The notes under the pieces: generated by a model
Seen by the model: only the letters and a program-made list of their open reading frames with translations
Databases searched by the model: none
What the model was told of the DNA's origin: nothing
Shown: piece after piece, positions 300 to 47,392 of the stretch
Layout: each line of letters opens with the position of its first letter
How positions within the stretch are numbered: the first letter of the stretch is position 1
Virus record (IMG/VR): IMGVR_UViG_3300036828_001403
Span: 1-47,392 of that record
Length of the DNA: 47,392 bases
Source: a virus
Strand: one strand, 5' to 3'
Translations under genes and position numbers: made by a program

Positions 300-692
300 C
301 AGCACTTCGATAGCGCCTCGCGCAACCTGCAAACGCAATTGATGAATATCCAGAAATTGACGACCTCCGCGACGCCAGCATCCGCAGATCAGATTAAGAG
401 CCAGATCGACAAGTGGAACGCGCAGGCCAGGACGTTGAAGACGCAGGCCGATAAAGCGGGCCTCGATTACGACGAGAGTCTATTCGAGCCGGTAACGGCC
501 AAGACGATTCAGAATCATCCTTGGTTGGGTGGTTTGAGCGGCACTACTACGAGCATTGAATCGGGTGCCGCTCCGCCGTCTGCTACAGCGCGACCATCTG
601 GTGTTGGTTCCGATTGGACTCAGACTTCAGTGAAAGGCAAGCCCGCGTGGGTGAGTCCTGACAAGACCAAAGCCGTTTTTATAAATGGCTGA
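3..692 (+). CDS. Internal virion (ejection) protein, C-terminal part
   Basis: This frame is open from the first base and is the continuation of the gene that begins at 46511 and runs off the right end. Joined across the terminal overlap, the protein would be roughly 500 residues. This portion is very rich in Gln, Ala, Lys and Glu with long predicted helices (the stretch around RADHKAEFQQTAADREQ), typical of an elongated coiled-coil virion protein, and it ends in a small Gly/Ser/Pro-rich tail. It overlaps the next gene by 8 bases, so the two are translationally coupled. Its place after the nozzle-like and GNAT-like genes and before a second large Ala/Gly-rich protein fits a podovirus ejection protein. 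No enzymatic motif is visible. The function is inferred from order and composition. Confidence 0.6.
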   Translation, partial: SIADQNPRNARLQEFAKSHIAEAKSRAEFLQKQQDLESGRADHKAEFQQTAADREQAHADMVAMRQQGLALQQQNEQANQQFKAITVQMQQSKNKDEQQQHFDSASRNLQTQLMNIQKLTTSATPASADQIKSQIDKWNAQARTLKTQADKAGLDYDESLFEPVTAKTIQNHPWLGGLSGTTTSIESGAAPPSATARPSGVGSDWTQTSVKGKPAWVSPDKTKAVFING

Positions 693-2688
693 TGTTGTTT
701 CCATCAATCCAAAGGATGTTGATCCGGTAGTCTCGATCAATCCTGCGGATGTCGATCCGCCATCCCCCTCTATCATGGACCCGCACCCGGTCCAGTCCGG
801 AGTCAGGCGCATCGGTCGAGTAGTCGGCGCTCTTGACCCAACCAACCCCGCCAATTTGCCAAGGGTTGCTCCTCCCGCAGCGGGAACTGCTACTGCGATA
901 GGCGCTCCTCTTGCCGGAGCAGCTATCGGTGGAGCGATAGGCGGTCCTCCAGGTGCGGTCGTGGGTGGTTTAACGGGTGCCGCGGTGGGCGGTTTCGGCG
1001 CGCCTTATGCTGAGTACGCGACCAGCAAGGCGTTGGGGAATCATCCTGCGGTCCCGGCTTTTTCTGATGCGGTGAAGGGTGCGGTTATCAACACGGTCTT
1101 TGAAGGCAACGCGCAAGTGAGCAAATTTGTCGGGGCAAGCGAACGGGCCGCTGCCGCAGAACTGGCCGGGCAGACGACGAGAACCGCAACCGAGATGGAG
1201 CGTCTCCCGCCCGAACTCAGAACACCGGAAAATATCCGCGCGGCCGCAACCAACCGCGATTTTCTCGGCCGGATGGGTATGAGTCCGCAGGAAATAGATG
1301 CGGCGATTGCTGATCCAGCGGGAACGGCAGAACGCTTACAGCAGTCGGTTAATGAAGGATTATCGGTAGCCGATACCTTCAATAAGACGGTGGAGGGGGA
1401 ACGCGCAAGGTTCAAGACTCGTTACGATGCGGCCTATGGCGCACAGGCGAATGCTCCGGTCGATACCAAGCCTATGGCCGATCAAATGCGTCAGATTGCC
1501 CAAGGGCAGGGACAGCACGAACTGACCCCGACCTTCAGGAATTTCCTGCTGCGTAAAGCTGATGAACTAGAAGGGCTAACTCCCAAGACCGCCCCAGTTC
1601 CCGGTGAAGTCTTGCAAGGAGCGACCAAGGCGCAGGCTGCGCAATATCGAGGAATTGATCTGGACCCCGGCACCCAGGCTCAATTGGAAGCACAGAAACG
1701 GGGTATTACCGACAATCGTGAGCTTCGTCGGATCGGTCAAGAAGCCCGAGCAGCAGCCCAAAAAGGACCAACCACTACGGTTCAAGATTTACGCTCGCTG
1801 CGAACCGAGATACGTGAGAACGTTCCGGCTGGTGCGACCAATCTGGATCGCAAGATCGCCGGGCAACTCGACCAGTCCATTACCGACAACTACGAGAAGT
1901 CGATTCTCGATCATGGCGGAACCAATGAGCAGATAGGGCAACTCCGCGGTATCGATCAAGATTACGGGGAGTTTCAGCGGACTATTGGCACGCTCAAACC
2001 AGGCAGCAAGGAATTCGGCGAGCAGACCGCTGATGCTTTCTTTCAGACCGCCAAGAACAACCCGACCCTGGCATTGAACTACGTACGCATGGCGGAAGAA
2101 TCGGGGACCATGCCCGAGTTTCGCGAGCAATTCCTGAAAAACCTCACCGGAGAGATGCAGGCGACTGATCAACCATTAAGCCAGATGGAAGTCCTCCAAA
2201 AGCTCCAAACGACGTGGCGCACTACGGAGGATGGCAAGCAGGTTTTGCGATCGGTGTTTGGAAAGAACTCTCCGATGGCCGATCCGGTCGAATTCTCCAA
2301 AATCTACTCGAATGTCGCAAGTGCAAGCGGGAAGGCGAAAGCGGCTGAAGCTGCTCAGAGCGTCATTTCCGGCTACATACGCTCGCCGAGGATGATCGTA
2401 AGTCTCGCCTCGTTCTACGCGACCTATTCGTTGATCGTCGGGCATGCCGGATCTCCGTGGGGTGACCTGCGCAAGAATCCCCAAGCTGCCCTCACCGGCA
2501 TCGTGGGTGCGGCGCTTACGTTAGCGGGAGTGAACAAGATCATGTCAACGGTATCGCCGCAGGTCCAGAGAACCTACGCGAGCTGGCTGGTGAATCACGA
2601 CCCCGAAAGTTTTGCCAATCTGATTCGGATGACCGGTGCGACGACGACCGGCCTCACGAGTCAGCCGTCAGAAGAGACTCGCCCTTAG
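685..2688 (+). CDS. Large internal virion / DNA-ejection-like protein
   Basis: A 667-residue protein. Residues about 60-110 are a Gly/Ala-rich hydrophobic segment (repeated GAAIGGAIGG-type glycine-zipper sequence), the middle is long, helical and rich in Gln, Arg and Glu, and residues about 565-625 contain two more hydrophobic stretches. Glycine-zipper segments plus long helices are common in podovirus proteins that are ejected to make a channel through the host envelope. I see no lysozyme or transglycosylase motif. It starts inside the end of the preceding gene. Its 3' end overlaps the convergent ATP-grasp gene by 35 bases. Assignment as an ejection protein comes from order, size and membrane-active composition; the exact family is not recognised. 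Confidence 0.6.
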   Translation: MADVVSINPKDVDPVVSINPADVDPPSPSIMDPHPVQSGVRRIGRVVGALDPTNPANLPRVAPPAAGTATAIGAPLAGAAIGGAIGGPPGAVVGGLTGAAVGGFGAPYAEYATSKALGNHPAVPAFSDAVKGAVINTVFEGNAQVSKFVGASERAAAAELAGQTTRTATEMERLPPELRTPENIRAAATNRDFLGRMGMSPQEIDAAIADPAGTAERLQQSVNEGLSVADTFNKTVEGERARFKTRYDAAYGAQANAPVDTKPMADQMRQIAQGQGQHELTPTFRNFLLRKADELEGLTPKTAPVPGEVLQGATKAQAAQYRGIDLDPGTQAQLEAQKRGITDNRELRRIGQEARAAAQKGPTTTVQDLRSLRTEIRENVPAGATNLDRKIAGQLDQSITDNYEKSILDHGGTNEQIGQLRGIDQDYGEFQRTIGTLKPGSKEFGEQTADAFFQTAKNNPTLALNYVRMAEESGTMPEFREQFLKNLTGEMQATDQPLSQMEVLQKLQTTWRTTEDGKQVLRSVFGKNSPMADPVEFSKIYSNVASASGKAKAAEAAQSVISGYIRSPRMIVSLASFYATYSLIVGHAGSPWGDLRKNPQAALTGIVGAALTLAGVNKIMSTVSPQVQRTYASWLVNHDPESFANLIRMTGATTTGLTSQPSEETRP

Positions 2689-3871
2689 CCATTGCTTCTC
2701 TGGCTTTCTGGAGTACATCCGTCGCGAAATGCAGTCCATCGGCGTTGACCGCCTCGGCTGCCTCTTCAGCCATCTCCGCCGCTTCTTCCGGTTCCGCCCC
2801 CCATCCCAAAGCCGATCCGAATTCCTCGTACTTGGAATCGTGGGGAATGATCCAGATCTTGCCGTCCAGCACGAAGTAGTTGTGAAAGGCGTAGAAGCAC
2901 TTCTTTGGAAAATCCACGCGCAGAAAGTCGTCCGCCACCACGTCAGACTTGAGTACGATTTCGCAAAAGTATTTCGCTTTGCCGTAATCCGGCGGCTCTC
3001 CCTTGAGCACTACCTGGGAGAAATTCCCGCAGGCCTGCGACATAATGCCGCCAGGTGGTGACGGCACCCGGCAAGTCGCGTCCGTCATGAAGACGGTGCC
3101 GTCCTCGGTGATGCGCATCTCGTTGGAGAAAAAACAGTTGTAGCCGGTGGAGGCGAAGTAATCTCCGATCACCTCGAAGATGGGCCGCAGCGGTTTGGGG
3201 GTTGTCTGGATCAGCCTTCCTGCATACCCCGCATCCTTGATCTCGCAGCCCAGGATCGCAGGTTCCATCCATCCATTACTGAAGTAAGTGTCGATGCCAA
3301 GTTCGCACGCCGACGGAATCGGGTCTTGCACGATAAAGCGCACCAGGTGACCGATGGGGCCGAAGCGTACCTGCAAACGATTGAACCACGGCTGCGCGCT
3401 CTCCCAGTCCACGAAATGAAACGTCTCGAGGTCGCCGCGGAACACGCTGACCTTGATAAACTTGTCCTTCTCGTGCTTCAGGTACTCATCAAGCTGCTGG
3501 AGTCCTTCGATCTCGCACTGCTCAATCACCGGCAGCTGGTGCTCTTCCAGCAAGTTCGCCATGAACCAGCGATCGGTCTCAAGATGATTGCCGGCGCCGC
3601 TGCCAAACACCGGAATCTTGAGCTCACGCGCCAGTTGCTCGAGTCCATTCAGATGGAGATCAAGCACCACCAGGTGGGAGGCGTTGCCCTCCAGCATGTA
3701 GGTAATGGGATCATCGACGCGTTCTATATCGGGAATGCCGGTGCCGGGTGCGAATTCCCGCGAGGTCGGAAACGCGTTGTGCCACGATGAGTAGTAGGCG
3801 ACCGGCTGGTCTTGTGCCAGGCGGGCGGCGACGTTTACGAAGAGCCCATTATCAACGACGAGCAGTTTCAT
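2654..3871 (-). CDS. ATP-grasp ligase, phosphoribosylglycinamide-synthetase-like
   Basis: A 405-residue protein read leftward, the only antisense gene between the ejection and capsid genes. It starts MKLLVVDNGLF, an N-terminal strand like that of PurD-type proteins. A segment like the PurD lid-helix region follows near residue 95 (PVFGSGAGNHLETDRWFMAN), then KFIKVSVFRGD (nucleotide-binding strand), FIVQDPIPSACELGIDTYF and FMTDATCRVPSPP, where ATP-grasp enzymes place their metal-binding carboxylates. ATP-grasp enzymes join a carboxylate to an amine or thiol through an acyl phosphate. The substrate here is unknown. Purine synthesis, amino-acid tagging of a protein and nucleotide hypermodification are all possible. 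I chose the 3871 start over an upstream in-frame ATG at 3946 because homology-like sequence begins there. The C terminus is Ala/Glu-rich. Confidence 0.65.
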   Translation of the reverse strand: MKLLVVDNGLFVNVAARLAQDQPVAYYSSWHNAFPTSREFAPGTGIPDIERVDDPITYMLEGNASHLVVLDLHLNGLEQLARELKIPVFGSGAGNHLETDRWFMANLLEEHQLPVIEQCEIEGLQQLDEYLKHEKDKFIKVSVFRGDLETFHFVDWESAQPWFNRLQVRFGPIGHLVRFIVQDPIPSACELGIDTYFSNGWMEPAILGCEIKDAGYAGRLIQTTPKPLRPIFEVIGDYFASTGYNCFFSNEMRITEDGTVFMTDATCRVPSPPGGIMSQACGNFSQVVLKGEPPDYGKAKYFCEIVLKSDVVADDFLRVDFPKKCFYAFHNYFVLDGKIWIIPHDSKYEEFGSALGWGAEPEEAAEMAEEAAEAVNADGLHFATDVLQKAREAMAKGESLLTADS

Positions 3872-3878
3872 GACCCTG

Positions 3879-3907
3879 CTTGTAAAAGCACGCAGACGAT
3901 TTGACAA
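3879..3907 (-). promoter_or_regulatory. Candidate promoter for the ATP-grasp gene
   Basis: On the minus strand TTGTCA (3902-3907) and TACAAG (3879-3884) are separated by 17 bases, a reasonable sigma-70 layout. The -10 box is only a 4/6 match. Transcription would begin almost at the ATG at 3871, giving a very short or absent leader, so the promoter or the start codon may be misplaced. Confidence 0.3.
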
Positions 3908-3933
3908 GAGAAACCCGAACGCATAAGTGGTCT

Positions 3934-3962
3934 GGGACAGAAGCAAGCCACGAATTTATAAA
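3934..3962 (+). promoter_or_regulatory. Candidate rightward promoter before the capsid genes
   Basis: GGGACA (3934-3939) and TATAAA (3957-3962) are separated by 17 bases, a fair sigma-70 match. It lies just ahead of the first rightward gene after the antisense ATP-grasp gene and could restart late transcription there. A perfect TTGACA at 3901 is also present but lacks a good -10. Confidence 0.35.
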
Positions 3963-3977
3963 GGTTGGTACAGGACA

Positions 3978-4169
3978 ATGCCGCGTGGAAGCAACAGTTC
4001 CATCGAAACCGACCGGGTGAGCGCGCAGGAGCGATTCAACTCTTCGCGTGCGAACGGGAAGACTGACGCCGGTGCCGCAATCCCCAATTCGCCCTATGTT
4101 AAAAAAGGGTTCGGAAGTGAGACCGGCATGCAGAGGAACCCCAAGAAGATGCCCGCTCCTCGAGAGTAA
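3978..4169 (+). CDS. Small hypothetical protein upstream of portal
   Basis: A 63-residue hydrophilic protein, rich in Ser, Asn, Arg and Lys, with no hydrophobic segment and no recognised motif. An in-frame ATG at 3927 would add 17 residues, but it would lie upstream of the candidate promoter, so 3978 is preferred. It opens the portal-capsid gene run and ends 3 bases before the next ATG. It may be a minor virion or assembly protein; that is inference from position only. Confidence 0.5.
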   Translation: MPRGSNSSIETDRVSAQERFNSSRANGKTDAGAAIPNSPYVKKGFGSETGMQRNPKKMPAPRE

Positions 4170-4172
4170 GCC

Positions 4173-4517
4173 ATGCCCATCGGCGTCGACGTGTTTTTAA
4201 ACGCCAACCAGTGGGTGATCTCTTACGACGCTCTTACTGCCACTCACACGTTGCCCTACCAGTTGTGGCCTGACATCACCGACCTGCTGCAGATGAAGCC
4301 GTTTCTGCCACGGCGCATGGTGTGGACCGCAGTCGCGTCGGCCGCTGGCAACCAGGTCATCCTCCAGGACAGCCAGGGCGCCACCTACGTGCATTTCGTC
4401 GCTTCCGGAGCTGACTACCAGCCCCCGCAAGAATGGAAACGCTCCACCTACGAATCGGGTCCGATGAAGGTCATCATCACCCAGTTTGATGTGGGGGAAC
4501 TGATTATTTACCTCTGA
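4173..4517 (+). CDS. Hypothetical structural-region protein, 114 aa
   Basis: The protein is beta-strand-like with alternating hydrophobic residues and many Tyr, Trp and Val, and has no signal peptide or membrane span. It sits tightly between a small ORF and another small beta-rich ORF, just upstream of the portal gene. I do not recognise the family. Size and composition would suit a small virion component such as a decoration or fibre-attachment protein, but nothing in the sequence proves this. Confidence 0.6.
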   Translation: MPIGVDVFLNANQWVISYDALTATHTLPYQLWPDITDLLQMKPFLPRRMVWTAVASAAGNQVILQDSQGATYVHFVASGADYQPPQEWKRSTYESGPMKVIITQFDVGELIIYL

Positions 4518-4521
4518 ATCA

Positions 4522-4902
4522 ATGCCTGAGCTGCGTGTCACCCTCAAGTTCGAGTTGGATGGCGTCACGCTGTCCGATATGCCGCTGATCAGCCGGGTGA
4601 TTGTTGCGGAAGGCGGCGCCCCCGTCATCCAGGTGTTTGCCCCGGATAACAATTCCACCGCGTTCCACCCGATACCCTCGATCACTTCGCCCAATGTCGG
4701 GGTGTTTTTCGCGCACACCGATCAGACGCTCAACTTGAACCTCAACGCGTTCAGTGCGGTGCCCCTGCAGGCGGGCGGTTTCATCCTGATCTTCGGGACG
4801 CAACTGACGCAGGCGACCCCATCCACCGATGTGCAGATCAACAACCCGGCTCTCACCGGTGGTGCCAGCGCCAACGTCACGATCCTCCATACGGGCACCT
4901 AA
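4522..4902 (+). CDS. Hypothetical beta-rich structural-region protein, 126 aa
   Basis: A 126-residue protein rich in Thr, Val, Ile and Asn with strand-forming periodicity and almost no charged helical sequence. Four bases separate it from the preceding stop, and its own TAA directly abuts the GTG of the portal gene. Similar overall character to the preceding ORF suggests they work together, perhaps as minor head proteins. The family is not recognised. Confidence 0.6.
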   Translation: MPELRVTLKFELDGVTLSDMPLISRVIVAEGGAPVIQVFAPDNNSTAFHPIPSITSPNVGVFFAHTDQTLNLNLNAFSAVPLQAGGFILIFGTQLTQATPSTDVQINNPALTGGASANVTILHTGT

Positions 4903-6744
4903 GTGCGCACCGTAGCGGAAGGTGCCGGAGAGTCGCTCAAGCTCACTGCCGAGCAGCGCTCCCGCCTCTCGGCCTATCTGCAATCCGCGCATCGCGAAGC
5001 GCTCGACCAGCGTTTCGGCGTGGAGAAGATGTGGCAGCGTTGCGACAACTCCTACATCGGTCAGTCACCGGCCGATCCCAGGTGGACCCCATATAAGGAA
5101 GCTCCCGTTATCGAAGTCACCATCGGTGCCATGTGCACCGATTCGGTGATCGCGCAGGCCAACAACCTGATCTTTCAGACCGAGCCGATTCTCACCATCC
5201 GCCCCACCCACGAGAACTACCAGGCCAAGGCCGAGGCGCTGCAGCGGCTGGTCGATATCGAAGTCCGCGGCAAGATGTGGAATTTCCGCGGCGGTGCCAC
5301 CGAGGGCCTGGTGGACGTGGTCAAGAAAGGCAACGTGGTCTGGTACGTGCCCTTCACCAAGACCGTGCGGGTCACCGACATCGAGAAGGTGGTGACCTTC
5401 GGCCCCAAGATTTATTGCCTGCCGCTCGAGGATTTCATCATGCCCGCCAATTCCACCAAGGACGTGCAGGCCGCCCGCTTCGCGACCGCGCGTTTCTGGC
5501 TGGGGCGCAAAGATTTGAATCTCAAGGCGCGGCTCAACAACTGGTCGGTGGACGACGCGGTGGGCGGCGATTCCAACGCGCCGCGCTACACGCGCCTGCG
5601 CGCTGCGGGCCTGGCCGGCGTTGCGGGCGAGAAATACGAAGAAGTCGCCATTGCCGACACGTTCTGCTACTTCGACCTGTTCGAAGACGGCACCGAGTGC
5701 GACCTCGAACTGATCTGGAACATGACCTCCGGACGCATCCTGAAGGCCATGTGGAACCGCTACGACTACCGCCCGTTCGTGCTCGAGTGCTACCAGGACC
5801 AGGCTCACACCTGGGTTGGTCTCGGCGTCATGCAGATGTCGGAGCAGTACGAACGCATGGCGACCGAGTTATGGAACAACCACGTCTGGAACGCGATGAT
5901 CGCCAACATGAAGGCCTTCAAGGGGCCGTCATCCGCCATGCAGGAGGCCAGCGAGCTCTATCCGGGCGTGTTTCTCACTACCGACAACGGCGATGTGCAG
6001 GCCATGGATATGGGCATCGTCAATCCATCCTCCATCCAGGCCTTTACCATGATCATGCAAATGGTGCGGGATCGGACTGGCACCCAGCTGCTCAATCAGC
6101 CGATGCGCAACAACTCGCGGACCCCCGCCAATACCATGTCCATGATCTCGCAGCAGTCCAATACCCGCTTCACTCCCCAGTTCGACAACATGCGCGACGG
6201 CCTGGCCAACTGCGCGATGCAGTGCATCTATCGCCTCCAGGAACAGGTAAAGGGCGGACCCAACCAGAAACTGGTCAGGGACCAGATCCTTGCGTTGCTG
6301 GGCGACGAAGACGGGGAACTGGTCATCGACCTGTTGAAGCAGAAGCGCCCACTGGTGGAAGCCATTGAAGTCCAACTCACTGCTGCCAGTGTCTCGGTCA
6401 ATCGCGAGTCGGACCGCCAGAACCTCATGCAGCTGGCTACCCAGGTCTATCCGCTCTACTTCCAGGCCTGCCAACAACTGGCCGCCATCAAGGCGCATCC
6501 GCCGTTCCCCGGCGCCGACCAGGTGGCGGATCAGGCCGCCAAGATGATCAACAACATCATGCACAAGCTCTTGAAGACTTTCGACCAGATCGCCGAGGTC
6601 AGGAATCTCACCGTCGATCTCGATGCGATTCAGCCCGTCATGGCCAACTTGGGAATGGAACAGATTCCGGGTCAGATGCAGGGAGCCATGACGGGAATCA
6701 TGGGCGGTCCCAGTCCAAACGGTGCTGCTGGACCAAGGCAATGA
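4903..6744 (+). CDS. Portal protein
   Basis: A 613-residue protein starting at a GTG directly after the previous stop codon. The size, the N-terminal helical region followed by an aromatic, strand-rich core (residues about 40-330), and the later segment with TQLLNQPMRNNSRTPANT leading into long Gln-rich helices match podovirus-type portal (head-tail connector) proteins. These form the dodecameric ring at one capsid vertex through which DNA is packaged and ejected. The C-terminal roughly 130 residues are helical and end in a Gly/Met/Pro-rich tail. Position directly upstream of scaffold-like and capsid genes supports the call. The terminase is about 30 kb away on the linear map, although both lie in the same rightward block on the circle. 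Confidence 0.8.
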   Translation: MRTVAEGAGESLKLTAEQRSRLSAYLQSAHREALDQRFGVEKMWQRCDNSYIGQSPADPRWTPYKEAPVIEVTIGAMCTDSVIAQANNLIFQTEPILTIRPTHENYQAKAEALQRLVDIEVRGKMWNFRGGATEGLVDVVKKGNVVWYVPFTKTVRVTDIEKVVTFGPKIYCLPLEDFIMPANSTKDVQAARFATARFWLGRKDLNLKARLNNWSVDDAVGGDSNAPRYTRLRAAGLAGVAGEKYEEVAIADTFCYFDLFEDGTECDLELIWNMTSGRILKAMWNRYDYRPFVLECYQDQAHTWVGLGVMQMSEQYERMATELWNNHVWNAMIANMKAFKGPSSAMQEASELYPGVFLTTDNGDVQAMDMGIVNPSSIQAFTMIMQMVRDRTGTQLLNQPMRNNSRTPANTMSMISQQSNTRFTPQFDNMRDGLANCAMQCIYRLQEQVKGGPNQKLVRDQILALLGDEDGELVIDLLKQKRPLVEAIEVQLTAASVSVNRESDRQNLMQLATQVYPLYFQACQQLAAIKAHPPFPGADQVADQAAKMINNIMHKLLKTFDQIAEVRNLTVDLDAIQPVMANLGMEQIPGQMQGAMTGIMGGPSPNGAAGPRQ

Positions 6745-9371: not shown

Positions 9372-9746
9372 ATGGCAGAAAAAAGTACAGAAGCCGTTCG
9401 TAGATGGCGAGCACGGCAAGGAATAGAAAAGGTGCGAGAAATAGGACGCTTGGATTCACAGAAGCGCCGTAATCTTATTCCCCATCTGGCTTTGAAGGAC
9501 AACCACCAACTTTCGCACGAACAGGCGCGCTTTCTGTACGAACAGATGCAGAAGGCTGTTTGTGACATCTGCGGAAACCCCGACCGGAAAGTCGTGTTCG
9601 ATCACAACCATACGACCGGCAAATTCCGCGGGTTTCTTTGTCAAGCATGTAATTCGGGCATCGGCCAGTTTGCGGACGATCCCGCTCTCATGGAGAAAGC
9701 GATCATGTACCTTAAAAATGAAGGTGAAACCCGATGCCAGCCGTAA
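9372..9746 (+). CDS. Recombination endonuclease VII-like (His-Me finger) nuclease
   Basis: 124 residues. The C-terminal half has two zinc-binding pairs, Cys64-x2-Cys67 and Cys90-x2-Cys93, around the His-Me core FDHNHTTGKFRGFLC (Asp77, His78, His80), as in T4 endonuclease VII. That family resolves branched DNA before packaging; free-standing members also behave as mobile genes. The N-terminal half is Arg/Lys-rich. The gene starts one base after the decoration-like gene and overlaps the capsid gene by 13 bases. Wedged between two capsid genes it could be a resident packaging resolvase or a homing-type insertion. A separate RusA resolvase is present elsewhere in the window. Confidence 0.85.
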   Translation: MAEKSTEAVRRWRARQGIEKVREIGRLDSQKRRNLIPHLALKDNHQLSHEQARFLYEQMQKAVCDICGNPDRKVVFDHNHTTGKFRGFLCQACNSGIGQFADDPALMEKAIMYLKNEGETRCQP

Positions 9747-10642
9747 CTTCTGCGTTTGCTGACTTGTTGTCAACTAGGTTTCAAACCTTCCTCGTGAATG
9801 TCGGGAAAGAATATCGCCGCCTGTGGCCCGAGTGGGTCAAGGCGGTCGACATGCCTACCAACCCGTACATCTCCGAGAAGGTCTCGGGCATGGGGATCCA
9901 GAACGCCAAGCCGGAAGGCCAGCAATTCCCGCCCGACCTGCCAATCATCGGCTCCAGCTTCCAGGTCACTGCCACGCCCTACGGGCAGTTGTTCAGCGTG
10001 ACTTGGGAAATGTGGCGGGATGACAAGTATGGAGTGATGGGCGAGATGTGGGGCGACATGGGCCGCTCCAACCGGCTCCGACAGGAAGTTCAGGCCTTCG
10101 GCTTATTCAACAACGCCTTCAGCGTCAACTCCGGCTACGACAACGTGCCGCTGATCACCAATGCCGCCTTGCCGCATCCCAACCTCGACGGCAGCGTTCA
10201 GGTCAATCGGCCGACTCCCGATATCGCGCTGAGCCAGACCGGCATTCAGGCAGGCCAGATCAATTTCGACGGCCTGAACGACGACCGCTCGCGCCCGCAG
10301 GACGTGGCGGCCACCCGGCTCATGATCCAGCAGAGCAACCGCTACCTCGCACGCGAGCTGCTGGGCTCCAGCGGCAAGACCCAGACCGGCAACAACGAGA
10401 TGAATGCGCTCTTGAACGACGGTCTGGAGTGGGGCGTCGTCCGTTATCTGACCCGCACCCAGGATTGGTTCCTGCTCGCCCCGGCGGATCAGACCGATGT
10501 CGAGTTCATGTGGCGCGACCGTCCCCGAAGCCGCTCGTTCGACGACCCCTTCATTGAAGCGGCTGACTTCACTGTCTATCAGCGCTTTGCGATGAGAGTG
10601 GGGGACTGGAAGGGTGTGTATGGCAGCACACTGGGGTACTAA
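9734..10642 (+). CDS. Major capsid protein
   Basis: 302 residues, start within the nuclease gene. Features consistent with a tailed-phage capsid protein are the size, mixed alpha/beta content, many Trp and Phe, an N-terminal helical segment, and a strand-rich core with DLPIIGSSFQVTATPYGQLF and the C-terminal EAADFTVYQRFAMRVGDWKG. It lies after scaffold-like and decoration-like genes and is the only protein in the window with this size and position, so it is taken as the shell subunit, presumably HK97-fold. The fold is inferred from family knowledge, not shown here. Confidence 0.75.
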   Translation: MPAVTSAFADLLSTRFQTFLVNVGKEYRRLWPEWVKAVDMPTNPYISEKVSGMGIQNAKPEGQQFPPDLPIIGSSFQVTATPYGQLFSVTWEMWRDDKYGVMGEMWGDMGRSNRLRQEVQAFGLFNNAFSVNSGYDNVPLITNAALPHPNLDGSVQVNRPTPDIALSQTGIQAGQINFDGLNDDRSRPQDVAATRLMIQQSNRYLARELLGSSGKTQTGNNEMNALLNDGLEWGVVRYLTRTQDWFLLAPADQTDVEFMWRDRPRSRSFDDPFIEAADFTVYQRFAMRVGDWKGVYGSTLGY

Positions 10643-20774: not shown

Positions 20775-21309
20775 TTCTGAACTCCTGAATCGTCCAATAG
20801 CTGTCCATCAGGGAGCGAAACCGGTCCAGGTCGCGGAAGTCCTCGTGCGGATAGAGTTTGTAGTTGCCGTCAGCCATCAGCAGCAGGCCAAAGCGCCGCA
20901 TCGTCGGAGAGCCAATCGCCAGAACCTGGCCGGCGGTCTGCAGTCGACACCAGGCCGGCATCCCACCTGACTTGAGCTCGAGGTCGACCAGGCGGCCGAG
21001 GTCGTCCAGCAGACCGATTTGGTCAGGGTGCGAGACAAAGCGCAGCGCCTCGCACCGGTACTCGCCCTCGCATTCCCACAGCTGAAACTCGTGCTCGCGA
21101 AGAAAGCGCCGGTAGGCATCGAGATACGGACAGCACTCGGGATGCCTGCTTTCCCACCCATCACCGAGTGACTGGTTACGGGCGATGAGATGGCAAGCGG
21201 CCGTGACCAGCCGACCGCGGCGCATCGCGCCCTCGTTGCTGTGCTGATCGAGCTCGGCCATGAAGCCGAAAAAGCGCAGCACTCCGGTCGTACTCGGCCA
21301 GTTCTTCAC
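20749..21309 (-). CDS. PD-(D/E)XK-superfamily nuclease
   Basis: 186 residues from a GTG that overlaps the RecT stop. Motif reading: HPDQIGLLDD (Asp102/103), then VDLELKSGG (Asp109, Glu111, Lys113), then CRLQTAGQ (Gln124). This G-x-x-D ... D-x-E-x-K ... Q arrangement is that of Cas4/RecB-like and phage recombination exonucleases. Coupled to RecT, it most likely trims double-strand ends to give the single strand on which RecT acts. Short for the family, so it may be a minimal nuclease. Confidence 0.75.
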   Translation of the reverse strand: MKNWPSTTGVLRFFGFMAELDQHSNEGAMRRGRLVTAACHLIARNQSLGDGWESRHPECCPYLDAYRRFLREHEFQLWECEGEYRCEALRFVSHPDQIGLLDDLGRLVDLELKSGGMPAWCRLQTAGQVLAIGSPTMRRFGLLLMADGNYKLYPHEDFRDLDRFRSLMDSYWTIQEFRNGNGISDR

Positions 21310-22442
21310 GTCTCTAGGGTGCGTAGGTACTGCTCGATCTCGTTGGCCTGCGACTGGCGCAGGTGCTTGAGCGCCCCCACGCCGTACTTTTCCTGGATGT
21401 GCTCGAAGAGCCAGGTCGGCTTGAGTCCGGCACCGGTGGTCTTATCGATTAGATCGTTCTGGGTGTCGGCGCTGATAAGCTCGTCAGTCGGCGGCGGAGC
21501 AGCAGGTGGTGGTGGAACCTCTTTGAGTGGCGGCGGAGGCGGTGCAGTCGCCACGGGCGGCCTTCTACGCCCTCCCCCATTGTCTGGTAGTGGGGTGCTG
21601 CGTTCTGCACTCACAACCTCCGCCGCCCGTGCTGCCGGCCGGGGTGCTGCAGCCTTGGCCGGCTTCTCGCGAGTCTTGCCCGGCAGGTCGTCGTCGCCGG
21701 CGCTTTCTTCAACGTGTTTGTACTCGGCGTCCTCAACCTCCATGGTGCGGCCGAACCGCTGCCAGGCCTCCCGGTTCTCTTCGCTTGGCCCGCAGACCTC
21801 GATGAACTTCGCCAGCCGGCGAACCGCAGTCTTCATCGCCATGGCCGGGTAGTGTTGGGACCAGGCTGGGCCGTCGGCATTCCTCGAGACGAGGCGAGCT
21901 CGCTCAATTTCGCCCAGCGGACACCAGCGATGCTGCATCAGCGGCACACCGGGACGAAGCTCCATCGGGAGCCAAGCCACCGCGTAGGCGCCGCGGATGT
22001 TCTTCTTGTCGAAGAGCCAGCGGGCGTCGTTGCGGCGTTCATCGTCAAGCTGGGGGCGATGACGCAGAAGTTCCTCGTCGCCCAAGCGCAGCTCGAAGTC
22101 GTCGCCATCGTAGACGCAAGCCGCGTTGATCTTGAGCACCGCGCCGGCGTGAATGAGCTGGTAGACCAGGCCGCGGTACTGGATCATCAGCTGCACTTCG
22201 TCGCCGAACGGGGCGATGGCGCAGTGATCGTACGCACTTCCGATCATGAGGCCGCAGTCGGCCGCCTTTAAAATCGCGTTGAGTAGCGATTCGGGATTGC
22301 GCTGGGCTACGGCCGCTAACTTCGGGTTGCGGTCGAGGTTGTAGCAGAGGGCAATGAACTGCTCGGGCGTGAGGTACCGGGGCAGGCGCTGGACGATGGT
22401 CTCGCGATTACGGTCAACCAGTTGTCTGACTAATTCACCCAT
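21306..22442 (-). CDS. recT: RecT-family single-strand annealing protein
   Basis: 378 residues. NPKLAAVAQRNPESLLNAI, then LKAADCGLMIGS, GDEVQLMIQYRGLVYQLIHAG and VYDGDDFELRLG are the conserved RecT core, and SQHYPAMAMKTAVRRLAKF continues it. RecT proteins coat single-stranded DNA and anneal complementary strands. Residues about 235-325 form an unusual Pro/Ala-rich linker (PPPPPLKEVPPPPAAPPP) before a small C-terminal helical domain, longer than in typical RecT. AGGAG lies 9 bases before the ATG; the long open frame upstream to 22877 is not coding. Overlaps the downstream nuclease by 4 bases. Confidence 0.9.
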   Translation of the reverse strand: MGELVRQLVDRNRETIVQRLPRYLTPEQFIALCYNLDRNPKLAAVAQRNPESLLNAILKAADCGLMIGSAYDHCAIAPFGDEVQLMIQYRGLVYQLIHAGAVLKINAACVYDGDDFELRLGDEELLRHRPQLDDERRNDARWLFDKKNIRGAYAVAWLPMELRPGVPLMQHRWCPLGEIERARLVSRNADGPAWSQHYPAMAMKTAVRRLAKFIEVCGPSEENREAWQRFGRTMEVEDAEYKHVEESAGDDDLPGKTREKPAKAAAPRPAARAAEVVSAERSTPLPDNGGGRRRPPVATAPPPPPLKEVPPPPAAPPPTDELISADTQNDLIDKTTGAGLKPTWLFEHIQEKYGVGALKHLRQSQANEIEQYLRTLET

Positions 22443-22447
22443 AGGTC

Positions 22448-23134
22448 TTACTCCTCGTCCTCCAGAACCGGCATGGTCGATAACTGCTTGGCCCGATCGC
22501 GAATGTACTGCAGGCGTTGGAACACGACATAGAGCCGGCGCACGTCGTTGCGACACCAGCGCTGCACGAGCTCGAGCGGCTGCTCGACGAGGTTGCTGTG
22601 GCTCGTGCGCTTGGCCGGGAGGCCGGCCAAAAAAGACAGCAGCGACAGACCCCCGCGGGGTCCCCGGGTCGCCCCGTAGGCGTTGAGCAGGTCCATCACG
22701 TCCACATGCCAGTCTTCCTGGAAGCGGTAGCGGTTGCCGTAACGCTGGTTGAAATGCTGAGGAATACGAATCGAGTAACGCAGCGCGGCGAGCTCGAGCA
22801 CGGGGAAATCGAATCCGCGGCCGTTGAAGCTGACCAGCGTGCCGCGGCGGGGTTCGCTCTGGAAGCTCCCGATCCAATCCCAGAACTCACGACACACGCT
22901 CTCGCTATCCTCCCCTTTAATACAGCCTAGGCGCGTCAATTCACCGGTGGTCTGCTCAACCAACCCTATGGCGATCGCTACTGGGAGATGATACGAATGC
23001 GGAATCCAAACTGACTCATCGTCACCAGTACGCTGTTTCTGGTCAGCGAGATACTCCTCGCGGTCGCAGTTCTCGACCTGCTCCACGAGCTCCCAATCGA
23101 TCCTGGTCTCTATGTCGAACAGCGCGTAGGTCAT
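22448..23134 (-). CDS. PolB-like DEDD 3'-5' exonuclease
   Basis: 228 residues. ALFDIETRID gives exonuclease motif I (Asp7, Glu9), LVSFNGRGFDFPVLE motif II (Asn104, Asp109), and WHVDVMDLL with QRWCRNDVRRLY motif III (Asp197). This is the pattern of the stand-alone predicted 3'-5' exonuclease related to DNA polymerase B proofreading domains. First gene of the leftward operon, five bases upstream of RecT, so it presumably acts on ends in the same recombination pathway or in proofreading-like cleanup. No polymerase domain is attached. Confidence 0.82.
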   Translation of the reverse strand: MTYALFDIETRIDWELVEQVENCDREEYLADQKQRTGDDESVWIPHSYHLPVAIAIGLVEQTTGELTRLGCIKGEDSESVCREFWDWIGSFQSEPRRGTLVSFNGRGFDFPVLELAALRYSIRIPQHFNQRYGNRYRFQEDWHVDVMDLLNAYGATRGPRGGLSLLSFLAGLPAKRTSHSNLVEQPLELVQRWCRNDVRRLYVVFQRLQYIRDRAKQLSTMPVLEDEE

Positions 23135-24109: not shown

Positions 24110-25489
24110 ATGTCTGTTGGCTTCGAACGTGGTCGCGATAAGTTAATCATCTACTTCGACCTGCCCGGGTGGCCGACCCGCATCAAGATTGGGCTTGGGG
24201 AGAAGTACACCAAGGAGCGCCACCACCACTACAACGAGGGCAAGGGCCAGCTCGGCGACAAGGTAAGGGGCTGGATTGGTGGCGCGCGCTGGAAGGAACT
24301 GCTCGAGCGCTTTCCCGACAGTCAGCCACTGCGCCGCGCGCTTGCAAGCAAGGTCGGCGGGGTCGAGCTCACCGTGGGCGCTATGCTCGACGGGTTGGTC
24401 GAATACTGGGAGCGCAAGGGCCGCCGGCAAATCGACAAGCTCGCCAGCAAGCTCGAGCATCTGCGCGAGTTCTTCAAGGCCGAGACCTACGTGACCGACA
24501 TCACCGACCTTCGGGTCGACGACTTCGTAAGCCACATGCGCAAGGCCGGCTTCTCGGGCGCGACCATCAACCGCTGCCTCTCCCATCTGAAGACCGCCTT
24601 TCGCAAGGTTGCCAAGCGCCACGGCATCGAGCGTGTGCCGGTCATGGAAATGCAGGCCGAGGCACCGGCGCGGGAAGACTTCTACGAGCGCCACGAAGTC
24701 GATCGACTGGTAGCCGAGCTCCCCCGCCACGAGCAGGCGGCGACCATGGTGGGGTTCTTTACCGGCTGGCGCCGCGATGCGGTATTGTCGCGCCGGCGCA
24801 CGACCGACGTCGATGCCGAGTTCCTCTATCTCGACGCGGATCACGCCAAGAACAAGAAGCCCCTGATGTTCCCGCTGAGCTCGTATCCTGAACTGCGGCC
24901 GCTGCTGGAGAAGCAGATTGCCTACGTTCGCGAGCTCGAGCTCAAGCTGGGGCGCGTCATTCCGTGGTTGTTCCCGAACCCCGAGACCGGCGAGCGGCTT
25001 AAGACTTTCTACGACTCGTGGCGTGGCGCGGTGGAGCGGGCCGGACTTGAAATCGATCCGCTGACCCAGCAGCCGCGGCTACACTCGGTGACCGGAGAGC
25101 CGGTGAAGCGCCTCTACCATGGGCTGCGGCGTACGGCGACCCGCAATCTCGAGGACCTGGGGATGAGCACGCTGGAGACCATGGACCTCGTGGGACACAA
25201 GACCATGGCCATGCACCAGCGCTACCGCGGTCTGGCCGACAAGACCAAGGCGCGAAAATACGGCGAAAAGATCGCCGCAGCGGTGGCGGCCCGGGCGCCG
25301 TCCAACTTGTCTAGCGGCGATTTTGTCCAACATACGTCCAACAGAGACCTCCTGCAGGAAAGCGACTGCACCGAGGTGGTCGCCGAGCCGGTAAAAAAGG
25401 CAGCAAACTCAAGGGGTTTTCGTGCCGGGGGCGGGACTCGAACCCGCACGGACCTTTCGGTCCAGAGGATTTTAAGTCCTGGGAAATAG
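24110..25489 (+). CDS. int: Tyrosine integrase (site-specific recombinase)
   Basis: 459 residues. An N-terminal arm-binding-like region (about 1-75) and a core-binding SAM-like domain (about 85-180) precede the catalytic domain, which shows TGWRRDAV (Arg221), HGLRRTATRN (His337, Arg340), LVGHK (His363) and MHQRYRGL (Tyr372), the R-H-R-H-Y set. It integrates and excises the phage genome by strand exchange. The last roughly 23 codons (RAGGGTRTRTDLSVQR) are a translation of the tRNA-derived att core, a common arrangement in which the attachment site overlaps the 3' end of int; on integration this end would be re-formed by host sequence. Own promoter just upstream. Confidence 0.93.
   Translation: MSVGFERGRDKLIIYFDLPGWPTRIKIGLGEKYTKERHHHYNEGKGQLGDKVRGWIGGARWKELLERFPDSQPLRRALASKVGGVELTVGAMLDGLVEYWERKGRRQIDKLASKLEHLREFFKAETYVTDITDLRVDDFVSHMRKAGFSGATINRCLSHLKTAFRKVAKRHGIERVPVMEMQAEAPAREDFYERHEVDRLVAELPRHEQAATMVGFFTGWRRDAVLSRRRTTDVDAEFLYLDADHAKNKKPLMFPLSSYPELRPLLEKQIAYVRELELKLGRVIPWLFPNPETGERLKTFYDSWRGAVERAGLEIDPLTQQPRLHSVTGEPVKRLYHGLRRTATRNLEDLGMSTLETMDLVGHKTMAMHQRYRGLADKTKARKYGEKIAAAVAARAPSNLSSGDFVQHTSNRDLLQESDCTEVVAEPVKKAANSRGFRAGGGTRTRTDLSVQRILSPGK
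25322..25342 (+). repeat. Left arm-type integrase site pair
   Basis: TTTGTCCAAC-(4 bases)-GTCCAAC, inside the int gene and 81 bases left of the att core. A further GTCCAAC lies at 25300-25306. The same two-part unit with the same 4-base spacer occurs right of the core at 25607-25627. Confidence 0.7.
25423..25480 (-). other. attP: attP core: 3' half of a tRNA-Leu(UAA) gene
   Basis: Read on the minus strand this is anticodon stem-loop (AGGA / CTTAAAA / TCCT, anticodon UAA), the long class-II variable arm (GGACC GAAA GGTCC), a perfect T-arm (GCGGG, TTCGAGT, CCCGC) and the acceptor 3' strand CCCCGGC plus discriminator A. No 5' half and no CCA follow, and pairing fails just outside the anticodon stem, so it is not a tRNA gene but the attachment core. 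Integration into the host tRNA-Leu(UAA) gene would restore an intact tRNA. Confidence 0.88.
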
Positions 25490-46510: not shown

Positions 46511-47392
46511 ATGGCGGCCTTGCTGGGAATGGCGCTCGGTGGCCTGGCAGCTTACGGGGCTGGACAATCGCGCCAGAAACGCGCGGGGCAGCAGAAGGCC
46601 GCCGACCTCATGCTGCAGGCCGGATTCCAGTCTGGTGACCCGAATGCATTCGACTCACCGGACATCCAATCCACCATCGCCAAGGCTTACGGCAGCGACT
46701 TCGCGAAGTCCCTGCCCCATTTCGCTCAGTCGATGAACCAGCCGATGCCCGGCATGCCGGCGATGCCCGGAATGGGCGGACCGCAAACCGCTGGTACCGC
46801 TCCCGCGGGCGCAGCCCCAGCTCCGGGTGCTCCTGCGCCCGCTCGTGGTGGACCCAATCTGATGCTGCCCAAGGTAGCGGGCAATATCCCCAGCCAGATG
46901 CCGATGACCTCGGTGACCGGACCCAGCGGCGCCCCGGTTCCCGGCACCACCGAAGGTCCTGCGGGCCGTGGCGGGACTCTGCCTGCGGCAGCACCACCCG
47001 CAGCCCCAGCTCCAGCCGCAGCGACAGGGCCTCCTCCCGAGCACGGCGATCCGAACGACCCGCAAACCTGGCTGCGCTACGCCGATAGCATCCAGTCGAT
47101 TGCGGACCAGAATCCCCGCAATGCACGGCTGCAGGAATTCGCCAAGTCACATATTGCGGAAGCCAAATCTCGGGCGGAATTTCTCCAGAAGCAGCAGGAC
47201 TTGGAATCGGGTCGAGCCGAGCACAAAGCGGAATGGCAACAGACGACAGCCGATCGCGAGCAGGCGCACGCCGACATGATGGCGATGCGACAGCAGACTC
47301 TGGCACTACAGGCGCAGAATGAGCAGGCCAACCAGCAGTTCAAAGCCATCACGGTTCAGATGCAGCAATCGAAGAACAAGGACGAGCAGCAG
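46511..47392 (+). CDS. Internal virion (ejection) protein, N-terminal part
   Basis: Truncated by the window end; continues at base 3. A hydrophobic Gly/Ala N terminus (MAALLGMALGGLAAYGAG), helical part, a Pro/Ala/Gly linker (residues about 75-175), then the coiled coil that repeats the left end of the window with six residue changes (for example Phe to Trp and Gly to Thr). Starts 3 bases after the previous stop. Confidence 0.6.
   Translation, partial: MAALLGMALGGLAAYGAGQSRQKRAGQQKAADLMLQAGFQSGDPNAFDSPDIQSTIAKAYGSDFAKSLPHFAQSMNQPMPGMPAMPGMGGPQTAGTAPAGAAPAPGAPAPARGGPNLMLPKVAGNIPSQMPMTSVTGPSGAPVPGTTEGPAGRGGTLPAAAPPAAPAPAAATGPPPEHGDPNDPQTWLRYADSIQSIADQNPRNARLQEFAKSHIAEAKSRAEFLQKQQDLESGRAEHKAEWQQTTADREQAHADMMAMRQQTLALQAQNEQANQQFKAITVQMQQSKNKDEQQ
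47094..47392. repeat. Right copy of terminal direct repeat
   Basis: Counterpart of bases 1-299 with the same frame and 11 substitutions clustered in 47221-47313. Marks the circular join. Confidence 0.9.

Follow-up and report, generated by a model that had tools for sequence, protein, structure and literature searches.

A PurD-like ATP-grasp gene beside portal, ejection-type and tail genes in uncultured bacterial viruses

The locus and its genes

The stretch of DNA analysed here, called the window, is an IMG/VR virus record of 47,392 bases from an uncultured bacterial virus. Its minus strand carries at 2654..3871 a gene for a PurD-like ATP-grasp protein of 405 aa (P0001), in which a pre-ATP-grasp domain, an ATP-grasp domain and a PurD-type C-terminal domain can be recognized. 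The gene runs from an ATG at 3871 to a stop codon at 2654-2656. The open frame extends upstream to a TTG start at 3946, and the ATG is preferred because it fits the conserved N-terminus of the relatives.

The neighbouring genes lie on the plus strand. A 667-aa protein encoded at 685..2688 is regarded as ejection-type from its position and from a homologous cluster in relatives, with no firm family match. The 3' ends of this gene and of the ATP-grasp gene overlap tail-to-tail by 35 bp. On the other side, divergent to the ATP-grasp gene, a conserved basic Gly/Lys-rich protein of 63 aa is encoded at 3978..4169. The far side of the slot is formed by a small 114-aa gene (4173..4517), and a similar gene of 115 aa is found at the same place in L223, a relative discussed below. 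A small conserved gene of 126 aa (4522..4902), whose place and approximate size are kept in relatives, stands just before the gene of an SU10-like portal protein (4903..6744; PF23899, E=3.8e-18). The portal gene is within about 1 kb of the ATP-grasp gene, and the major capsid protein is encoded further on at 9734..10642 (PF25209, E=3e-14). The lone leftward ATP-grasp gene that an earlier note on this DNA had placed inside the virion block is therefore confirmed at 2654-3871, between the ejection-type and portal genes. The promoter candidate that the same note had assigned to it was not recovered: a sigma-70-type scan of 2500-4300 found no such site and no intrinsic terminator, though the gene may have a phage-specific promoter.

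The ATP-grasp frame is a genuine gene with syntenic orthologues under purifying selection. An antisense orthologue of 57% identity occupies the same position in L002, a phage whose portal is 82% identical to that of the window. The dN/dS ratio of the ATP-grasp gene is 0.03-0.04 within a close group of relatives (L007, L009, L015 and L020); comparison of the window gene with L002 or L027 gives about 0.2, a rough value as these pairs are near saturation. The third-position GC of the window gene is 0.73.

Elsewhere in the window, an integrase is encoded at 24110-25489 on the plus strand (phrog_1, E=4.5e-30) and a RecT-like annealing protein at 21306-22877 on the minus strand (phrog_148, E=6.8e-34). 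These two genes suggest that the phage may be temperate. Frames 1-692 and 46511-47392 match separate parts of one gene of about 345 aa in L027 and L002. The genome may therefore be circularly permuted, with the ends of the record falling within that gene.

Relationship to GAR synthetase

The AlphaFold model of the window protein reached a pLDDT of 93 when built with a 33-member family alignment, and 46 when built from only two sequences. In VIA, the top 13 matches were all GAR synthetases, with Z scores of 25.7-28.4 over 356-368 residues, and PurT followed at Z 23. The best superposition was with 2xcl (Z 28.4, 368 residues aligned, rmsd 3.4). Foldseek also ranked GAR synthetases first (E about 1e-18), and the L-amino acid ligase 3vot placed below PurD. 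The structure-based search that the earlier note had proposed thus puts PurD first, ahead of PurT. At the sequence level, the best profile match was to PurD, with E=1e-9. The NCBIfam model TIGR00877 gave E=1.5e-5 and 24.1 bits over residues 75-137 only, and 19.4 bits in a genome-wide search, both below its cut-off of 288 bits. Together, the weak TIGR00877 match, the PurD profile match and the fold searches bear out the likeness to PurD that had been noticed from the sequence. Neither Pfam, even at E=10, nor PHROGs gave a match to the window protein, and none of the BFVD viral structures spans the whole fold (best TMq 0.46). The predicted fold and the residues K140, E251 and D264 place the protein in the ATP-grasp superfamily, and the comparisons point to a true but very divergent cousin of PurD.

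The residues tell a different story from the fold. Among 25 PurD sequences, 87 positions are invariant; 79 of them could be aligned and 9 are kept in at least 90% of the family, the alignment being uncertain around E. coli residues 195-245. The motif RFGDPE, a PROSITE-like GARS signature that was checked against the sequences, is present in 23 of 25 PurD sequences and in 0 of 33 family members. The substrate-loop motif GPNTGGMG is likewise found in 22 of 25 PurD sequences and in none of the 33. With roles assigned by alignment to PurD and from models without bound ligands, the P-loop residues A150, G152, K153 and G154 of E. coli PurD align with R145, D147, L148 and E149 of the family, and the metal ligands E286 and N288 with D264 and T266.

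The protein might nonetheless be a functional GAR synthetase that raises purine supply, a reading to which we give a negligible probability. It would explain the fold, the PurD-like C-terminal domain and the weak TIGR00877 match. The P-loop, the metal ligands, GPNTGGMG and RFGDPE are all changed, however, and 24 bits is far from the 288 required. A housekeeping role in purine supply was rejected on the residues. With 9 of 87 invariants kept and both motifs absent from all 33 members, the window protein has the PurD architecture and appears not to be a GAR synthetase. This agrees with the earlier note, which had set it apart from housekeeping PurD: the full set of GAR-synthetase residues is not there.

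The family has its own conserved residues. The 33-member alignment holds 22 invariant columns, which include R145, G146, E149, E190, D194, E210, K212, E251, R253, D264 and R268, and lysine is found at position 140 in 94% of the members (E251 and D264 in 100%). This pattern bears on whether the protein is a catalytically dead ATP-grasp scaffold which serves as a virion or assembly protein. The rebuilt P-loop, the altered PurD metal ligands (E to D and N to T) and the location within the virion block would suit a scaffold. Against it stand the near-constant K140 and the invariant E251, R253, D264, R268, E190, D194, E210 and K212. Polar residues that stay invariant across 27-57% identity suggest a working polar site, and the changes of gene orientation described below suit catalytic amounts better than structural ones. 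A dead scaffold is therefore considered very improbable.

A family in uncultured viruses

Single-protein and two-sequence scans of IMG/VR returned one relative at most. Hand-made DNA motif patterns, unlike the sequence scans, recovered the family. The pattern for D-A-T-C-R-x-P-S-P-P found 22 stretches of IMG/VR, with family members in 20, and a looser pattern found 53, with family members in 52. The family motif reads E-x-R...D-x-T-C-R-x-P-S-P-P, and 33 non-redundant members form the family alignment (A4).

Outside IMG/VR, a search of 50,697 annotated phage records matched none of the five family members tested, and no match to the window protein was found in plasmids. Bacterial genome contigs yielded one locus, on a contig of 7.3 kb in the bin of an Acidiferrales MAG, which is the sole hit in 396 genomes of that phylum. 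This contig is considered phage-like because it carries the same virion genes. The family is thus large and apparently undescribed in uncultured viruses, and an earlier mention may exist.

Several members show particular features. Two IMG/VR contigs, 3300046517_000933 (L034 and L035) and 3300047321_000419 (L032 and L036), contain the ATP-grasp region twice, near both contig ends; they are probably longer than one genome length. In L072, one open frame at 20-1675 joins a family member to an N-terminal HAD-like sequence (IGFDFDGTI), a part for which Pfam gave no HAD match. Moreover, the members in L039, L040, L041, L042 and L044 have N-terminal extensions of about 80-130 aa with a shared RGF..DG.F..R motif, which we take to resemble a small phage protein type.

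Genomic context in relatives

The gene is antisense in the clade of the window and mostly on the same strand as the virion genes in the other clades. A portal gene stands beside it in L061 (phrog_1216, 1.4e-21), in L062 (phrog_156, 2e-70) and, weakly, in L065. In much of the L049-L081 group, the terminase gene is followed by a gene of about 107 aa, one of about 745 aa and then the ATP-grasp gene. Profile-profile comparison gave no confirmation that the 745-aa neighbour in this largest partner-bearing clade is a portal, so it is a portal by position only. In the L037, L040 and L044 group, a tail-protein gene lies upstream, and the ATP-grasp gene is flanked by a giant gene and the gene of a pectate-lyase-type tail spike; this order resembles that of T7. 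The label ejection-type for the giant genes, which encode about 1,200-1,800 aa, reflects their position only. Phages of several unrelated architectures thus have the family gene next to genes for portal, ejection-type or tail proteins.

Among phages with related portals, the slot could be read in 8 contigs (10 loci), and a family member is present in all 8, antisense in 7 and sense in 1. The sense-strand case is L223, whose portal is 69% identical to that of the window. Its family member shares only 27% identity with the window protein, being closest to that of L080 (39.6%). In the tree it groups with the L050-L081 branch (97/96 support). Gene lineage and strand have thus changed, and the slot has been retained. 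Where the window protein has DATCRVPSPPG, L223 reads DPTPRMPGQTG; C267, P272 and P273 are changed, which suggests that some of the conserved residues are non-catalytic.

The occupied slot bears on another reading of the gene, as a moron or auxiliary metabolic gene that has a promoter to itself, is expressed early or in the lysogen and alters host metabolism. The lone antisense position fits this reading, and the integrase gene of the same genome makes expression from a lysogen possible. Yet every portal relative whose slot could be read has a family member there, and the genes of other clades are mostly sense-strand and often abut a partner gene. Furthermore, no promoter was found in the sigma-70-type scan, and the family is very rare in cellular genomes, with the one phage-like contig in 396 genomes of one phylum. 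We consider this explanation improbable.

The 63-aa basic gene adjoins the ATP-grasp gene in every relative of the window clade, L223 included. Its product is 92% identical to that of the window in L002, 68% in L027 and L223, and 45-48% in L018, L020 and L026. Beyond this clade, the gene has one doubtful match, in L061 (E=0.26). The earlier note had suggested looking for precursor peptide-like neighbours in relatives, and the closest candidate is the conserved, basic 63-aa gene at 3978-4169. A small ORF upstream of the ATP-grasp gene in L030-L036 (c19) was dismissed, being antisense over the conserved 63-aa gene and its neighbour.

These neighbours raise the question of a ligase which tailors the virion, attaching an amino acid or peptide to the ejection protein, the portal or the 63-aa basic protein during assembly. 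Such a role is possible, though we regard it as unlikely. It is suggested by the neighbouring portal, ejection-type or tail genes, which recur across several architectures, by the Lys-rich 63-aa neighbour conserved across all window-clade relatives, and by a slot that is still occupied after gene replacement. However, the PurD-type ATP-grasps known so far act on small molecules. The confinement of the 63-aa gene to the window clade, bar the doubtful L061 match, also argues against it, and the antisense orientation in this clade is unexpected for an assembly factor.

A small HExxE protein beside the ATP-grasp gene

In many phages, the ATP-grasp gene abuts a short gene whose product, of about 125 aa, has an HELxE motif and the invariant residues H48, E49, E52, D70, H100 and E107 (alignment A5). 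For instance, it is encoded at 1780-2163 of L050, where it abuts the PurD-like ATP-grasp gene, and 28 other loci are included in A5. The two genes abut in 29 fetched loci (26 contigs). The small gene lies upstream or downstream and once, in the window clade, convergent (L018 and L030, one contig). No convincing Pfam, PHROG, PADLOC or PDB match was found for the protein. This frequent partner, like the sense-strand arrangement of most other clades and the gene replacement within the slot, becomes visible only through relatives and was beyond the reach of the earlier note.

A scan with the HExxE protein alone returned 111 further loci. A PurD-like ATP-grasp was present in the fetched stretch in 61 of them and at most 300 bp away in 55, counted with a pooled profile that spans two PurD-like groups. 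Only pooled counts are used because the iterated profile for the second group absorbed the first. The HExxE protein is abundant in uncultured phages and also occurs without ATP-grasp genes. The window and most of its close kin are without this partner, and the function can therefore do without it.

The second PurD-like group stands beside the same HExxE gene, for instance in L160 (3522-4868, plus strand) and L161 (3231-4634, minus strand). It shares with the window family a PurD-like ATP-grasp gene that abuts this small gene. In contrast to the window family, it has retained motifs that recall PurD (RFGYD in L160 and L161, GPNTG also in L161). It forms a separate branch in the tree and includes an unannotated INPHARED record, MW202796.

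Proposed activity and significance

The reading that we slightly favour overall is a phage-specific ATP-grasp carboxylate-amine ligase, derived from PurD, which has taken a new acceptor and meets a catalytic need around particle assembly or genome delivery. What was observed is the fold, the loss of PurD signatures, the family, its context and its partner; the chemistry, the timing and the product are inferred. The proposed reaction begins with the phosphorylation by ATP of a carboxylate positioned over the ATP-grasp site. The pre-ATP-grasp and C-terminal domains would hold an amine, and its attack on the acyl phosphate would give an amide together with ADP and phosphate. The core that serves ATP and metal would be retained in a modified form (K140, E251, D264 and R268). 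The P-loop and the phosphoribosylamine/glycine side would have been rebuilt (R145-G146-x-x-E149, E190/D194/E210/K212 and R253), and for this reason the product would not be GAR. The use of ATP by the family is itself presumed from sequence, as the P-loop region is strongly altered.

The virus would need the enzyme as a catalyst and not in the amounts of a structural component around the time when particles are assembled or the genome is delivered, a view that the retention of the slot through changes of strand and gene lineage favours. Gene order is no proof of late expression, and in the window clade the gene runs against the virion genes. In many phages the enzyme would work with the abutting small HExxE protein, and in the window phage without it. 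As for the product, the PurD-type architecture tilts towards a small molecule and the gene neighbourhood towards a modified virion protein. The product favoured here is a small amide or aminoacyl conjugate, ahead of direct modification of virion proteins. For the earlier note's suggestions that the enzyme could modify a virion or host protein, or make a nucleotide for DNA modification, the analysis found no evidence of such a substrate.

A bolder proposal, rather unlikely in our judgement, is that the PurD-derived ATP-grasp and its HExxE metalloprotein-like partner form a widespread new phage module for the amide-linked modification of portal or ejection proteins. If true, this module would include an enzyme of the PurD lineage that acts on a protein.

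The enzyme family recurs in uncultured viruses, its tested members are unmatched in annotated phages, and by position it is linked to the genes for genome delivery. It is kept by phages whose portals are unrelated, and in one lineage a distant cousin on the other strand occupies the slot, which suggests that the function is valuable there. Its substrate could reveal a virion-protein modification or a small molecule with a use in infection. The often adjoining HExxE protein offers a concrete two-protein system for study.

Relation to known systems

PurD is the closest known relative in architecture. The three-domain fold over residues 1-396, the ATP-grasp core and the C-terminal domain are common to both. 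In contrast, identity is 12-17%, 78 of the 87 PurD invariants are not kept and the P-loop is replaced in the family. The viral distribution and the virion-gene context also distinguish the family from PurD.

Viral ATP-grasp peptide ligases of the R2K/CDC123 type are predicted to modify proteins (PMC7824862, PMC4431377). According to the literature they belong to a different ATP-grasp lineage. These and the other published phage ATP-grasp systems are unlike the window family in size, partners or position.

LUZ24-like and phiEco32-like phages are described as carrying amidoligase, glutamine amidotransferase and ATP-grasp genes (Iyer et al. 2009, as given in PMC10580990). They share with the window phage the presence of putative phage-borne amide-bond enzymes. 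Neither an amidoligase nor a glutamine amidotransferase was found among the neighbours and larger window ORFs scanned. In UFV-P2, the ATP-grasp protein ORF28 (291 aa) is encoded among the early genes, which there include those of an amidoligase and of a glutamine amidotransferase (PMC3890496). The window gene is longer, encoding 405 aa, and in contrast to ORF28 it lies in the virion block.
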